Source: Nitrospirota bacterium
GTDB lineage: Bacteria; Nitrospirota; Thermodesulfovibrionia; Thermodesulfovibrionales; UBA1546
Length of the DNA stretch: 47,036 nucleotides
Direction: 5' to 3'
Assembly: GCA_016208915.1 (NCBI GenBank)
Contig: JACQXE010000021.1
Coordinates: forward strand, 1-47,036
Below, piece by piece: positions 8,112 through 46,834 of the stretch. The notes beneath the pieces are model-generated. The model was given only the letters and a program-made list of their open reading frames with translations. It was not told the DNA's origin and searched no databases. A program made the translations under genes and the position numbers. Each line of letters starts with the position of its first letter. Within the stretch, counting starts at the first letter, position 1.

Positions 8112-9743
8112 ATGAAACATGTAAAAATCGCCTTTGCACAGATTAATACTACAGTCGGTGATATTGATGGTAATGTATCTAAAATCTGTGATTATATAAA
8201 AAAAGCAAAAGAAAGCAGAGTTAAAATAATACTATTTCCTGAACTCGCAGTAACAGGTTATCCTCCCGAGGATCTTCTTTTAAAGCCCCATTTCATAACA
8301 GACAACATAGATTGCCTAACAAAAATTCAGGCAGAGACAAAGGATATTACAGCAATAGTAGGTTTTGTTGACAGACAAGACAGCAACATCTATAATGCCG
8401 TTGCAATATTCCACAAGGCCCAATTTATAGGTGTATATCACAAGATCTACCTCCCAAATTATGGGGTCTTCGATGAATACAGATATTTCAAGCCTGGCCG
8501 TAAAGCCTCGGTTTACAAAAGTGATGGGCTGAGTTTTGGGGTTAATATATGCGAGGACGTCTGGTATCCTGAAGGCCCTGCAAGATCACAGGCGCTCGAA
8601 GGCGCTGAAATTATCTTCAATATAAATGCCTCGCCATATCACATGGGAAAGGCATATATGAGAGAGGAAATGGTCGCTAAACGCGCATCTGACAATAATG
8701 TGGCAATTGCATATCTGAATGCAGTAGGCGGTCAGGATGAGCTTGTTTTTGACGGAGGGAGCTTTGTTGCAGATAGGACAGGTGAGATTATTGTCAGGGC
8801 AAAGCAATTTAAAGAAGAGATGATTATCTCTGAGATAGTCCTTGACGGCTATAATCTCCCCATTCCCCCTTTAACAAAGGGGGGCGAGGGGGGATTGGAA
8901 GAAGAAGTTTATGAAGCGCTTGTTCTGGGCACGAGAGATTATATAAATAAAAATGGCTTCAAGCAGGTTGTCATTGGTTTGAGCGGAGGAGTTGATTCCT
9001 CCCTTGTGGCTACAATTGCAGTAGATGCCATAGGAAGGGAAAATGTTAAAGGTGTTTTTATGCCATCTCCTTATACATCCCGAGAGAGCAAAGAAGACGC
9101 CAATGAGCTTGCAGAAAACCTAAGTATTAAAATAATCGAAGTCCCTATTAATAGAATATTTGATGCATATATTGATACTTTGAAGAAAGAATTTAAAGGG
9201 CTTCAGGAAGATATAACAGAAGAGAATCTGCAGGCACGAATCCGGGGTAATATCCTTATGGCTTTTTCTAATAAATTCGGATGGCTGGTCCTGACAACAG
9301 GCAATAAATCAGAGATGAGCGTTGGATATGCTACGCTCTACGGAGATATGGCTGGCGGCTTTGCTGTAATAAAGGATGTGCCGAAAACCCTTGTATACGA
9401 ACTATGTAAATGGAAAAATTCTAAAGAGGGAAGGGCGCTGATACCTCAAAGGGTTTTATGGAAAGATCCTTCTGCAGAACTAAGGCCTGATCAGAAAGAC
9501 ACTGACGCGCTCCCTCCGTATCCCTTGCTTGACCCCATACTTAAGGCATACATAGAGGAAAATAAGAGTTTTGAGGAGATATTGTCTTTAGGTTGTGACA
9601 GAGCATGCGCTGAGGGAGTTATTAGAATGATTGATAACAGCGAATACAAAAGGCGGCAGTCTCCTCCCGGCATTAAGATAACGCCGCGGGCCTTTGGCAA
9701 GGACAGGAGGTTCCCAATAACGAACAGATACAGGAGCTATTAG
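8112..9743 (+). CDS. nadE: Glutamine-dependent NAD+ synthetase
   Basis: Makes NAD+ from deamido-NAD+, ATP and glutamine. The N-terminal nitrilase-like glutaminase domain shows the catalytic triad Glu44 (LFPELAVTGYPPEDLL), Lys111 (YHKIYLPNYGVFDE) and Cys147 (NICEDVWYP). The C-terminal synthetase has the PP-loop SGGVDSS (residues 291-297), TTGNKSEMSVGY and the KDTDALPPY region. At 543 aa the length is normal. The linker between domains (residues about 248-263) is a translated dispersed repeat giving PIPPLTKGGEGG. No strong ribosome site is visible before the ATG. Confidence 0.97.
   Translation: MKHVKIAFAQINTTVGDIDGNVSKICDYIKKAKESRVKIILFPELAVTGYPPEDLLLKPHFITDNIDCLTKIQAETKDITAIVGFVDRQDSNIYNAVAIFHKAQFIGVYHKIYLPNYGVFDEYRYFKPGRKASVYKSDGLSFGVNICEDVWYPEGPARSQALEGAEIIFNINASPYHMGKAYMREEMVAKRASDNNVAIAYLNAVGGQDELVFDGGSFVADRTGEIIVRAKQFKEEMIISEIVLDGYNLPIPPLTKGGEGGLEEEVYEALVLGTRDYINKNGFKQVVIGLSGGVDSSLVATIAVDAIGRENVKGVFMPSPYTSRESKEDANELAENLSIKIIEVPINRIFDAYIDTLKKEFKGLQEDITEENLQARIRGNILMAFSNKFGWLVLTTGNKSEMSVGYATLYGDMAGGFAVIKDVPKTLVYELCKWKNSKEGRALIPQRVLWKDPSAELRPDQKDTDALPPYPLLDPILKAYIEENKSFEEILSLGCDRACAEGVIRMIDNSEYKRRQSPPGIKITPRAFGKDRRFPITNRYRSY
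8857..8897 (+). repeat. C-rich/G-rich inverted repeat in frame within nadE
   Basis: CCCC-ATT-CCCCCTTTAACAAAGGGGG-CGAGGGGGGATT forms a long hairpin. In many bacterial genomes such CCCCCTTT/AAAGGGGG elements are dispersed between genes; here it is translated into the variable linker between the glutaminase and synthetase domains without breaking the frame. Confidence 0.75.
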
Positions 9744-9771: not shown

Positions 9772-10887
9772 ATGGCTAAGGTCTTTTTTTCATCAGCACG
9801 GATTAAGAAATGGAAATACACAGACAGTATGCCCGGCAAACTTGAGCTACTACTCAAACAAATAAATCTGAATAATTATTTTGAAAAAGACGAATGGGTC
9901 GCTGTAAAAACACATTTAGGTTCAGAAGGCGCTCACAGAATTATACGGCCTATTTTTTTAAGAAAAGTTGTTAATGTATTAAAAGAGGTCGGTGCAAAAC
10001 CATTCATTACAGATACTGTTCGTATAAAGGGGCTTGACTACCTTGAAGTTGCTAATAACAATGGCATAAACCACCTTTCTGCAGGAGTGCCTGTTGTGCT
10101 TGCTGACGGACTCTATGGAAATGACAATATAATGGTGCCGTCAGGAGAGATATTGGGTGAGATAGCAGTTGCGAGCGTTATATATGATGTTCCGGCAATG
10201 GTAGTTTGTTCACACATAAAAGGTCATATACAGGCAGGTTATGGCGGTGCTATAAAGAATGTTGCAATGGGCGGCATTAGTTCCAGCCACAGGCACTGCG
10301 GATGGAAATGCGGCAGAGGCGCCATGCATACTATAGGTGAAGGCACGTTAATCTGGGATGGCGAAAAATGCGAACTCTGTCTTCAATGCCAGGAAATATG
10401 CCCACTCGAGACGATTAAGTTCGAGAACGAGCTTTTTTCTTATAATAGTGATGACTGCTGGAGATGCGGCAGGTGCACGAGGGTATGCCCTTCAGGCGCT
10501 CTTACAATACCAGGAGACGATGAGAGATTTGTTCGATCACTTGCCGAGGCTGCAAAGGCTGTTCTAAGCACATTTAAGCCTAATAAGGTTCTATACATAA
10601 ATTTTCTGACAGAGATACAGCCTGAATGCGACTGTATGCCATGCGCAGACGTGCCTGTTATTCAGGATCAGGGTATTCTTATTTCTGATGATATAGTAGC
10701 TATTGAGCAGGCAACAGTAGATATGCTGCTCAAAACTCGGCCATTACCTCAGTCAGCAGCAGAAGAATTGCAACTCGAAGCATATGACATCCTTTTCAGC
10801 CTGACAAAAAAGCCATATAAACTTCAGATAGAAGAAGCGGAAAGGCTTGGACTCGGAAGCAGACAATATGAATTGATAGAAATTTAA
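9772..10887 (+). CDS. DUF362 protein with two 4Fe-4S ferredoxin motifs
   Basis: A 371-aa protein with an N-terminal DUF362 domain (VAVKTHLGSEGAHRIIRP, ADGLYGND, CSHIKGHIQAGYGGAIKNVAMG) and a ferredoxin insertion around residues 200-245 with two Cys clusters, CELCLQCQEICP and CWRCGRCTRVCP. Further cysteines occur in CGWKCG and CDCMPCADVP. DUF362 proteins are of unknown biochemical function and are common in anaerobes; electron transfer is inferred from the clusters. The ribosome site AAGGGGGG precedes the ATG, and the gene follows nadE by 28 bases. Confidence 0.92.
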   Translation: MAKVFFSSARIKKWKYTDSMPGKLELLLKQINLNNYFEKDEWVAVKTHLGSEGAHRIIRPIFLRKVVNVLKEVGAKPFITDTVRIKGLDYLEVANNNGINHLSAGVPVVLADGLYGNDNIMVPSGEILGEIAVASVIYDVPAMVVCSHIKGHIQAGYGGAIKNVAMGGISSSHRHCGWKCGRGAMHTIGEGTLIWDGEKCELCLQCQEICPLETIKFENELFSYNSDDCWRCGRCTRVCPSGALTIPGDDERFVRSLAEAAKAVLSTFKPNKVLYINFLTEIQPECDCMPCADVPVIQDQGILISDDIVAIEQATVDMLLKTRPLPQSAAEELQLEAYDILFSLTKKPYKLQIEEAERLGLGSRQYELIEI

Positions 10888-10960
10888 AAAAAAAGCGTTG
10901 CTACCCGTGGGATGTGGGCAGCAACGCAGGGGAGGTAATGAGTCGCTTTACTAATTTCTG
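10886..10960 (-). ncRNA. Candidate small RNA with anti-Shine-Dalgarno seed and intrinsic terminator
   Basis: On the minus strand a consensus promoter (10966-10994) would start a roughly 75-nt transcript. It ends in a hairpin of 8 bp plus 3 bp (arms 10895-10902 and 10920-10927) followed by nine T residues, a textbook intrinsic terminator. The 5' single-stranded part contains CTCATTACCTCCCC, complementary to a ribosome site plus AUG (GGGGAGGTAATGAG); the hairpin loop is also C-rich (CCCACATCCCAC). No coding frame is present. It lies convergent to the DUF362 gene, its T-run overlapping that gene's stop region. I do not recognise an Rfam family. Confidence 0.6.
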
Positions 10961-10965
10961 CTTAT

Positions 10966-10994
10966 AATATAAATAGACCCTTCAAACTTGTCAA
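10966..10994 (-). promoter_or_regulatory. Sigma-70 type promoter of the candidate small RNA
   Basis: On the minus strand TTGACA (10989-10994) is separated by exactly 17 bases from TATATT (10966-10971). The predicted start is near 10959. This is one of the two best -35/-10 matches seen in the window. Confidence 0.65.
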
Positions 10995-11398: not shown

Positions 11399-11427
11399 TT
11401 GACTAATATTGTCCAGTGTTGTATAGT
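11399..11427 (+). promoter_or_regulatory. Promoter of the methyltransferase gene
   Basis: TTGACT (11399-11404), 17-base spacer, TATAGT (11422-11427). The expected start point near 11434 lies downstream of the GTG at 11416, so that codon cannot be the translation start. It also leaves only a 5-6 base leader for the ATG at 11440, favouring the ATG at 11464. Confidence 0.6.
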
Positions 11428-11463
11428 TTAATTACACAGATGGTTAAGAAAGAAAAGATAGGC

Positions 11464-13050
11464 ATGATTAATACTAAACAGGCAGCGATGCTTTTAGGCG
11501 TTAGTCCTAAAACTATTTATCGTATGGAACAAAAGGGATTTGTCCGTTCAATCAGGACACCGGGTGGACAACGTAGGTTCAATAAAGAAGATATAGAAAA
11601 CTATCTAGATGCAAGTAAATCATTTATTGCACCCCAAAATCCCAGTAGATACAAAAAAAATATTACAGCGACTCCTTCTTTTATAAGCGAACAGATTGCA
11701 GAATATTCTTTATTCTCGCCTCCTGAAATTGAACCAATTACAAACATATCAAAGTTGCAGCAGCAAATATCAATTAGGAATATAAGGAGTCATAAACAGC
11801 ACTATGATTCAGATATTGACATGTTTAGATGGATAGATGAATGGGATTTTAAGTACTATCAAACTAAAACATATACCCACGGGTTTCATACATATCCGGC
11901 AATGTTTATCCCACAGATCGCTCGAAAATTAATACAGGTTTTTTCGTCTGGGGGTGATACTGTATGTGATATCTTTTGTGGATCAGGTACTACTCTTGTT
12001 GAAAGTAGTCTTTTGAATAGAAATTCCATTGGTATTGAACTCAATCCTCTATCCGTCTTAATAGCAAAGGTTAAGACAACACCTATAGATCCCAAAACCC
12101 TCACTAATAATCTAAAATTGCTTTTGGAAGATTACAAACACATGAGAAATATTCCACCGCCGAAATTCGCTAATATTAATTTCTGGTTTTCAGAAACAGT
12201 CACCAGAGATCTAACAAGACTTAGACAGGCTATATGGAATATTTCAGAAGAAAATATCAGGAATTTCTTTTCGGTGTGTTTCAGTGAAGTTGTACGCATT
12301 GTTTCATATACACGGCATAAAGAGTTTAAATTGTTCAGAGATAAAAGCAAATTAGAAAAAACTTTTCATCCTGATGTGATAGGTGAATTTGTAAAAATGT
12401 GCGAAAATAATATACTCGGCATGAAGGAATATGTCTTTGATGTTGTTCCTAATGTTAATGTGAAAATCATATTAGGGGATTCAACTAAGGATAATGGGAT
12501 ACAAGAAAGTTCTGTAGATTTTATTATAACTTCGCCACCTTATGGCGATAGTAGGACTACTGTTGCATATGGGCAATTTTCAAGGTTGCCTGCACAATGG
12601 TTAGATTTACTACCATCTCATATAAAAGACATTGATAAGGAACTGCTTGGCGGCAAAAATAACATAAATTTAAACGATCCAATTCTTGACTTATCTGAAA
12701 CCTTGGAACTGAGTATCAAAGTGATTTCAGGGAAAGATAAAGAGAGAGCTAAAGACGTGTTGAGTTTTTATATCGATTTATACAAAACCCTTCTACAGGC
12801 ACATAAGATTTTACGTTCACAGAAATATTTCTGTCTTATTATTGGGAATAGAACCGTAAAAGAATTAGTTTTAAAAACCGATGCGATAATCTGTGAGTTT
12901 GCTGAAAAGATCGGCTTTATCTCTCAAGGAATACTCTATAGAAATATTCCAAATAAAAGAATGCCTCTAAAGAATAGCCCAACAAATGAACCCGGTAAAA
13001 CTGGTTTTACAATGCAGAAAGAGAGTATAGTTTTACTTAAAAAAATATAA
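11464..13050 (+). CDS. DNA methyltransferase with N-terminal MerR/excisionase-type HTH (type II R-M)
   Basis: The N-terminus carries a DNA-binding helix-turn-helix of the MerR/excisionase type (TKQAAMLLGVSPKTIYRMEQ, then RTPGGQRRF). The catalytic part shows the AdoMet motif DIFCGSGTTLVES (about 11967-12006) with IGIELNPLS, and the catalytic TSPPYGDS (about 12528-12551), as in N4-cytosine or N6-adenine methylases. It converges with the endonuclease gene, 3 bases apart. The ATG at 11464 is chosen because it starts right before the HTH and leaves a 30-base leader after the promoter; ATG 11440 is the alternative. The fused HTH suggests the methylase represses its own or partner promoters. Confidence 0.88.
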   Translation: MINTKQAAMLLGVSPKTIYRMEQKGFVRSIRTPGGQRRFNKEDIENYLDASKSFIAPQNPSRYKKNITATPSFISEQIAEYSLFSPPEIEPITNISKLQQQISIRNIRSHKQHYDSDIDMFRWIDEWDFKYYQTKTYTHGFHTYPAMFIPQIARKLIQVFSSGGDTVCDIFCGSGTTLVESSLLNRNSIGIELNPLSVLIAKVKTTPIDPKTLTNNLKLLLEDYKHMRNIPPPKFANINFWFSETVTRDLTRLRQAIWNISEENIRNFFSVCFSEVVRIVSYTRHKEFKLFRDKSKLEKTFHPDVIGEFVKMCENNILGMKEYVFDVVPNVNVKIILGDSTKDNGIQESSVDFIITSPPYGDSRTTVAYGQFSRLPAQWLDLLPSHIKDIDKELLGGKNNINLNDPILDLSETLELSIKVISGKDKERAKDVLSFYIDLYKTLLQAHKILRSQKYFCLIIGNRTVKELVLKTDAIICEFAEKIGFISQGILYRNIPNKRMPLKNSPTNEPGKTGFTMQKESIVLLKKI

Positions 13051-13053
13051 CAA

Positions 13054-13764
13054 TTATATCAACTGCTCGTAATTGTTATATAGAGTAAGGAAGTCCTTCT
13101 TGTTCATTCGGAAACCAGTCCCATGGTCGTGATACTTACCTTTATTCTTACCGCTTCGATACACTCCGATACGAATATCCACTTTAAGGTAATCTTCGGC
13201 TATTGCAGCATGAAACTTATCAGCATTTAAGTTGTGTAATAAGTATGCCTCTATATAATGAAATTGTTCATTAGGACTTCTTTTTTCTCCTTGTGTTTTT
13301 GCAAGAGCGAAAAAGATAGTATTTGACTTTGAAACTAATACGTCTTTGAATATATTTTCATCCCAATATGCCATTATATTATGTGGTGTATTTTCTAAGA
13401 ATAACTTGCCTTTCCTGAATGTCATTTTAAATCCTTGGGGATTAAATCTTGAACCATAAACAGTTGAGTGCACGTTATAATAGCCGTCACTGTCTCTGTA
13501 CTTATAGTGCTCAAAAATAATTCGATTTGCTCCACGCGGTTGAGGAGCCTTAGTTGCTATAGTGAGCATGCTACTTGAATCGAGTCGATGTGCTTTTACT
13601 TCAACTTCGCCCACGTCGGGAATTCGGAAATTGTTTTCTTTTAACCCTAATAAATCTTCTAATGTTCTGCCTACTCCAGGATCATGCGGTAAGTGTGTTT
13701 TGATGAATCCTAAAGATTTGATTTCTTGCAGTTGTTTTTTAAGATATTGTACCGTCAATAGCAT
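13054..13764 (-). CDS. MvaI/BcnI-like type II restriction endonuclease
   Basis: A 236-aa protein with the family signature GRTLEDLLGLKENN followed by PDVGEVEVKAHR, the PD-(D/E)xK-type metal site in which the Asp, Glu and Lys are seen. MvaI and BcnI are monomeric enzymes cutting CCWGG and CCSGG; the target of this one cannot be told from sequence. The ATG overlaps the stop of the upstream controller gene (TAATG), implying translational coupling. The C-terminal part is rich in basic and aromatic residues (YRSGKNKGKYHDHGTGFRM), plausible for DNA contact. Confidence 0.85.
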   Translation of the reverse strand: MLLTVQYLKKQLQEIKSLGFIKTHLPHDPGVGRTLEDLLGLKENNFRIPDVGEVEVKAHRLDSSSMLTIATKAPQPRGANRIIFEHYKYRDSDGYYNVHSTVYGSRFNPQGFKMTFRKGKLFLENTPHNIMAYWDENIFKDVLVSKSNTIFFALAKTQGEKRSPNEQFHYIEAYLLHNLNADKFHAAIAEDYLKVDIRIGVYRSGKNKGKYHDHGTGFRMNKKDFLTLYNNYEQLI

Positions 13765-13988
13765 TATTCGTTCACAAAAAAAGAAAGAGGTTTTTTATAA
13801 AGTTTTGCAAGTTGAATTAATTCGATAACATCCAACCTTCTTTCGCTAGATTCACATTTTGAGATATAGGACTGGGGTTTCCCAATTCTTTTGGCAACCT
13901 CCGCTTGAGTCATACCTGCTTCAATACGAGCACGTTTAAGTTGACGCAAAACAAAATCATATTCTGTTGAATATATGCTTTTACCCAC
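13764..13988 (-). CDS. XRE-family controller (C-protein-like) of the R-M system
   Basis: 74 aa, nearly all a Cro/C1-type HTH: RQLKRARIEAGMTQAEVAKR, then KPQSYISKCESSERRLDVIEL. Size and position directly upstream of the endonuclease fit C proteins that delay endonuclease expression when an R-M system enters a new host. The GTG start at 13988 has no clear ribosome site, and a palindromic operator lies 13-44 bases upstream, so the mRNA may be leaderless or nearly so, as for several C genes. Confidence 0.85.
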   Translation of the reverse strand: MGKSIYSTEYDFVLRQLKRARIEAGMTQAEVAKRIGKPQSYISKCESSERRLDVIELIQLAKLYKKPLSFFVNE

Positions 13989-46721: not shown

Positions 46722-46807
46722 TATTCCGACAAAGCCAAATCCTTTGCGAAAAGGAGGCGGAAAGCGGCGGGTCTTCTTTTAGGAGACAGGAAGATGGCCG
46801 AGCTGCC
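46722..46807 (+). promoter_or_regulatory. Cyclic-di-GMP-I (GEMM) type riboswitch aptamer
   Basis: Core elements in order: CCGACAAAGCCAAATCC, a 5-bp stem CCTTT/AAAGG capped by a GCGA tetraloop, AGGCGGAAAGCGGCGGGTCT, a variable loop, GAGACAGG, and ATGGCCGAGCTGCC. This follows the GEMM-I layout (AAAGxCAAAxC, GNRA-capped P-stem, GCxxAAGC, GGGTCT, GACAGG, GCCGxGxTGCC). Class I binds c-di-GMP; some members prefer cGAMP, and specificity cannot be judged here. The 3' part doubles as the left arm of a terminator. Confidence 0.75.
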
Positions 46808-46834
46808 TTTTTCTTCGGCAGCTCGGCCTTTTTT
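46796..46834 (+). terminator. Riboswitch expression-platform terminator
   Basis: GGCCGAGCTGCC (46796-46807) pairs perfectly over 12 bp with GGCAGCTCGGCC (46817-46828), followed by TTTTTTATTTT. The left arm overlaps the aptamer 3' end, so ligand binding and termination are mutually exclusive, suggesting an ON switch (inference). Confidence 0.85.

Follow-up and report, generated by a model that had tools for sequence, protein, structure and literature searches.

The contig JACQXE010000021.1 (assembly GCA_016208915.1) belongs to a Nitrospirota bacterium of the order Thermodesulfovibrionales (class Thermodesulfovibrionia, UBA1546), a class of mostly uncultured, sulfur-cycling bacteria. Its positions 1 to 47,036 were analysed (hereafter the window, 47,036 nucleotides) and raise the question of whether a promoter and an intrinsic terminator lying close together on the minus strand delimit a gene for a small RNA (sRNA) and, if so, which messenger RNAs such an RNA would control. 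Gene anatomy, conservation, covariation of the stem and seed-specific complementarity to the ribosome-binding site (RBS) of sqr, the gene of the sulfide-oxidising sulfide:quinone oxidoreductase (SQR), were computed directly. At the level of sequence, conservation settles that the sRNA is a real gene; most of the order has kept it, it occurs in at least one other genome of the class, and we infer that sqr is its best-supported target in many relatives.

Structure of the sRNA gene

A first-pass annotation of the window, made from the letters alone, had placed a near-consensus promoter (TTGACA, 17 bp, TATATT) and a terminator with nine T between 10994 and 10886 on the minus strand, and both are present exactly as placed (Table 1), the promoter agreeing with the consensus at 11 of 12 positions. 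Transcription is predicted to begin near 10959, a 5' end derived from the promoter, which gives a leader somewhat longer than in homologues. The hairpin folds at -22.9 kcal/mol (z -4.5), a value that 0 of 200 shuffles equalled; the seed is unpaired and CTCATTACCTCCCC lies in the open 5' segment. As is generally expected of a trans-acting sRNA, the gene has its own promoter and intrinsic terminator and holds no open reading frame (ORF), none of the listed ORFs of its strand coinciding with it; it is single-copy in the genome of the window. The same annotation had called this arrangement unlikely by chance; promoter-like sites, however, occur in the region at chance level (29 found, 27.8 expected from shuffles), so that anatomy alone can only suggest a gene and conservation has to make the case.

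Conservation across the order

By blastn against 60 relatives, we recovered clear homologues from many of the order's families, with promoter, seed, hairpin and T tract; the consensus of the seed in relatives is GCGCCTCGTTACCTCCCCT / GCGCCUCGUUACCUCCCCU. The exact 19-nucleotide (nt) GCGCCTCGTTACCTCCCCT occurs at 57 loci in 84,980 species, where about 2 would be expected by chance, and by their record titles all of these are Nitrospirota except one unassigned "uncultured bacterium". A covariance search across related genomes, suggested earlier as a check, recognised homologues at E <= 0.1 in 128 of the order's 176 genomes (123 of them at E <= 2e-7). At the former threshold it matched 98 of the 126 good-quality genomes, and the sRNA is also carried by G296, a genome from the class but not from the order; two genomes hold two copies. 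Elsewhere in the phylum, within a set of 296 genomes drawn from it, there was no convincing match to the covariance model. Genus g2, in the same family as the genome of the window, lacks the sRNA, and genus g14 gave no convincing match.

In the homologous promoters TTGACA is preceded by a C, in 96% of cases, and by a T tract. Most homologues have 11-16 nt between the -10 element and CTCG, from which it follows that the RNA would usually start with AAGCGCC or immediately upstream of it. Across 80 distinct sequences the stem reaches 99.7% pairing and 10 of 10 pairs show double-sided changes, in an alignment that was fitted to the covariance model and so leans towards it; in alignment A2, made by MAFFT alone, it is 100% paired, with double-sided changes in 5 of 10 pairs. 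The seed is the most conserved part of the RNA, loop and linker being variable, and its clade-specific changes are found in f2 (CTCGTT-CCTCCCC), in f10 (CTCGTTATCTCCCC) and in single genera.

The sRNA lies tail-to-tail with the DUF362/ferredoxin gene in 62 of 81 loci and its T tract often reaches the stop codon of that gene (in the window the two share two bases), an arrangement that would also suit an element acting in cis on its convergent neighbour, as an antisense RNA or a convergent terminator. We consider such a role very improbable. At most of the remaining loci with enough sequence the sRNA stands beside other genes with promoter, seed and terminator intact, which makes it an independent gene and not a part of DUF362; on the plus strand no T tract follows the hairpin, and action in cis would leave the conserved 5' seed unexplained. 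Hairpin and seed, whose loss in relatives retaining DUF362 the first-pass annotation would have taken as evidence against its proposal, are kept in most of these relatives, also where the RNA lies elsewhere.

Prediction of sqr as a target in relatives

Using the pattern GGGGAGGTAA-N(0-5)-ATG, we searched 50 carriers of the sRNA and obtained 71 matches, whereas the reversed pattern gave about 23, a difference that ribosome sites would be expected to show; the genes recurring across families were that of an SQR-like flavoprotein and a CMD-like gene. The SQR protein of the relatives matches Aquifex SQR (E 6e-104) and its gene is clustered with those of an ArsR/BigR-like regulator, DsrE, TusC and TusB. 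In the best cases, an RBS reading AGGGGAGGUAACG-AUGGC (DNA AGGGGAGGTAACG-ATGGC) pairs with the seed over 14 bp, then a bulge, then GGC, at -34 kcal/mol. Against the consensus seed, the sqr sites reach a mean of -22.5 kcal/mol, 33% of them being at or below -25 (n = 67), compared with a mean of -13.3 kcal/mol and 0.4% for 249 control genes from carriers. This pairing is specific to the seed, since shuffles of its nine 5' bases matched the sqr mean in 0 of 150 cases (2 of 298 in an earlier run), and the result is unchanged when the discovery genomes are removed and when one value per genus is used.

The distribution of sqr points in the same direction. Pairing of sqr is weaker in genomes lacking the sRNA (p 0.012, n = 8) and 40 of 43 genomes with sqr retain an intact seed core, GTTACCTCCCC, against 22 of 47 without it (Fisher p 2e-6), p values that ignore shared ancestry, with start codons picked by rule. 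In f10 the consensus seed is kept by G126, the sole genome with sqr, and the other ten have an altered one; the three genomes that combine sqr with altered seeds show own-seed pairing at background. Conserved complementarity between a conserved unpaired seed and the RBS of a target, which sRNAs of this kind generally display, is thus found for sqr in the relatives and not in the genome of the window.

We judge it likely that the gene encodes a free-standing, trans-acting sRNA whose seed blocks the RBS of its targets, with sqr as the main conserved target in many relatives. RNA polymerase would start at the TTGACA promoter and the transcript would stop at the hairpin-T terminator, giving in carriers an RNA of roughly 60-75 nt with its 5' end near AAGCGCCUCG, made of an unpaired C-rich 5' seed and one stabilising terminator hairpin. 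The seed GCGCCUCGUUACCUCCCCU would then pair with the Shine-Dalgarno sequence and onwards as far as the start codon, and so block ribosome loading; transcription, pairing in the cell, repression in preference to activation and a physiological signal are all presumed here from sequence. A T tract of this length would be suited to Hfq. The earlier proposal, a small RNA gene whose seed is directed against ribosome sites, is supported by the conserved complementarity to the RBS of sqr in relatives. A seed that spans RBS and ATG together, by virtue of its CAT, is a peculiarity of the genome of the window: the relatives have CGT, and their target AUG comes just after the paired RBS.

Several findings add to the neglect of shared ancestry and the rule-based start codons in weighing against sqr as the main target. 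The 13-nt seed complement (at most 1 mismatch) occurs at control level in 24 genomes, with no genome-wide excess, which implies few targets or short pairings, and the best gene-start matches of this complement fall in mixed genes. Many genomes with the sRNA have no sqr, so that sqr cannot be the sole reason for its conservation, and the sqr site is weak in f12 as well as in the genome of the window, where the duplex with the seed amounts to -13.6 kcal/mol, near background. The invariant 19-nt block also exceeds most sRNA seeds in length, and this could reflect many targets or a bound protein.

A bound protein is the basis of a further explanation, to which we give a low probability, namely that the near-invariant block, so long for a seed and kept over many families, serves mainly to bind a protein, such as an RNA chaperone or translational repressor, which the RNA would titrate as CsrB/C or 6S RNA do. 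It would fit with this that the 5' block is still recognisable, though changed, in lineages without sqr; however, the seed is without GGA motifs and the RNA without a 6S-like fold, the gene persists in f2 and f10 with seeds altered in their core, and the complementarity to the sqr RBS would go unexplained.

Somewhat more plausible, and still unlikely, is a broad anti-Shine-Dalgarno RNA of low specificity, or a decoy imitating the 16S 3' tail (ACCUCC), that lowers the translation of many mRNAs with strong GGGGAGG sites, sqr being one among them. ACCUCC is indeed common to the seed and the 16S anti-Shine-Dalgarno sequence, the genes with GGGGAGGTAA-N-ATG are varied, and the CMD-like gene pairs strongly with no need of the 5' half of the seed. 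By contrast, this half (GCGCCUCGUU) holds no anti-Shine-Dalgarno sequence and yet comes close to the CCUCCCC part in conservation, the pairing of sqr depends on it (none of the 150 shuffled seeds being as good), and about 1.4 such sites per genome are few for a global regulator.

Returning to the trans-acting sRNA with sqr as its target, a wider account can be proposed tentatively, at slightly less than even chances: an old, nearly class-wide sRNA of the Thermodesulfovibrionia would control sulfide oxidation by blocking the translation of sqr, seed and sqr site being maintained together, the seed core degenerating upon loss of sqr (f2, f10 and single genera) and the seed-terminator module having been taken into the 3' ends of other mRNAs.

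Other candidate targets

The CMD/AhpD-like gene was rejected as a target, its strong RBS pairing not being seed-specific, as were tusB, tusC and dsrE, for which the real seed is no better than shuffled ones, and the DUF362 gene, the RBS of which is not seed-complementary and gives no seed-specific pairing. A two-CW protein gave inconsistent results across paralogues and was likewise set aside. A cysteine/tryptophan protein of about 105 residues (LNCWEF.RCGR...), with no Pfam match, occurs order-wide in up to 14 copies per genome (for example 14 in G101, 12 in each of G156 and G171, 10 in G019).

In the genome of the window, the seed differs from the consensus by a C-to-A and a G-to-A change and the sqr RBS has changed too. 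A search of this genome for the 18-nt seed complement with at most 3 mismatches returned merely the antisense of the sRNA itself and one chance site, and the match at C18:39038 was rejected, there being no plausible gene start at that place. Neither this search nor the sqr pairing, which is at background, therefore yielded a clear target here. Among gene starts with GGGGAGGT, the best are those of a fabG-like gene (C3:42344, -27.1 kcal/mol) and pgi (C14:90480, -24.1 kcal/mol), with no comparative support.

Relation to known small RNAs

No Rfam family matches the sRNA at its gathering score. The atoC RNA (RF01733), which has a similar C-rich, terminator-like end hairpin, was rejected as a chance match: the window scores 28 bits against a gathering score of 50, and two homologues in relatives were unmatched in a permissive search. 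In the open-licence literature we found no paper on an sRNA in the class Thermodesulfovibrionia or on control of sqr by an sRNA.

The alpha-r14 or "cuckoo" sRNAs of alphaproteobacteria (NfeR1, CcsR) carry an ultraconserved unpaired anti-Shine-Dalgarno motif, CCUCCUCCC, and variable stems (PMC10746234). The Nitrospirota sRNA is like them a short RNA with such a motif in its unpaired part and with stems that vary; they fold into three hairpins, each with an unpaired CCUCCUCCC, whereas it has one hairpin and a single 5'-terminal seed, UUACCUCCCC, and belongs to another phylum, and no homology is claimed. Yfr1, an RNA of 54-57 nt present in nearly all cyanobacteria, combines an ultraconserved unpaired ACUCCUCACAC with variable stems (PMC2190773). 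This conservation pattern resembles that of the Nitrospirota sRNA, but in Yfr1 ACUCCUCACAC lies between two stem-loops, and here there is one stem-loop, a different motif and a different phylum. To our knowledge, the targets of Yfr1 also differ from those proposed here. The sRNA is thus a new family built on a known principle, and by definition neither an alpha-r14/cuckoo RNA nor Yfr1.

A survey of Rfam in 2022 listed 3 sRNA families in all Nitrospirae (PMC9029176). To these is added a family that the majority of genomes in a large order carry, one mostly uncultured and found in subsurface and sediment habitats; a covariance model, a promoter, a seed and a testable target come with it. Should the link to sqr be true, it would represent a post-transcriptional switch of sulfide oxidation in these organisms and a case of seed-target co-evolution traced through gain and loss of the target.

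Seed-and-terminator modules in 3' untranslated regions

Weaker matches to the covariance model consist of seed and terminator, with no promoter, in 3' untranslated regions (UTRs). Loci L126-L134 (in G165, G166, G163 and G152) have GTTACCTCCCC or TACCTCCCC plus a terminator in the 3' UTR behind a gene for a small membrane protein. G163, G165 and G166 hold several copies, most of which lie close to the ends of contigs, as would fit a repeated element. Three others (L135, L136 and L141, in G088, G098 and G099) have CTC[GC]TTACCTCC plus a terminator in the 3' UTR of a gene for a periplasmic Metal_resist protein (PF13801, marginal; ZraP/CpxP-like). In enterics, CpxQ is an sRNA derived from the 3' UTR of cpxP, of which this arrangement is reminiscent. 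These modules suggest that the sRNA gene may not be the sole source of a seed acting in trans. As an origin of the sRNA these modules were rejected, since the homologous Metal_resist genes of other families have no such motif behind them.

Genomic context

The features of the sRNA locus and its convergent neighbour are collected in Table 1.

Table 1. Elements of the predicted sRNA gene and the adjoining gene in the window
Feature	Position	Strand	Evidence
-35 element TTGACA (CTTGACA)	10994-10989	minus	TTGACA exact in 96/97 distinct homologous promoters
-10 element TATATT	10971-10966	minus	17-nt spacer; 17-nt spacing in 79/97 homologues
Predicted sRNA transcript, about 74 nt	10959-10886	minus	Inferred from promoter and terminator; covariance-model match 10950-10887, 76.6 bits
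Unpaired 5' seed GCGACUCAUUACCUCCCC / GCGACTCATTACCTCCCCT	10946-10928	minus	RBS-complementary; open in the fold; nearly invariant alignment block
Terminator hairpin, 12-bp stem and 9-nt loop	10927-10895	minus	Fold; stem covariation; arms GCGTTGCTGCCC (10927-10916) and GGGTAGCAACGC (10906-10895), loop ACATCCCAC
Nine-T tract of the intrinsic terminator	10894-10886	minus	T run in 86/90 homologues
DUF362 / 4Fe-4S ferredoxin-domain protein gene, 371 aa	9772-10887	plus	Pfam PF04015, E 6.8e-41; convergent neighbour

Directly upstream of the sRNA, a restriction-modification cassette (11416-13988) comprises a MerR/HTH-fused N6/N4 DNA methylase, an MvaI/BcnI-type endonuclease and a small HTH controller. 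A perfect TTGACA-17-TATAAT lies within the NAD synthase gene (8368-8396, plus strand), probably by chance. In one relative (G037), a 6S RNA is found about 1.3 kb from the sRNA (L010:2892-3064). The sole match at gathering level to Rfam in the window is a c-di-GMP-I riboswitch aptamer at 46724-46810 on the plus strand (55.9 bits).
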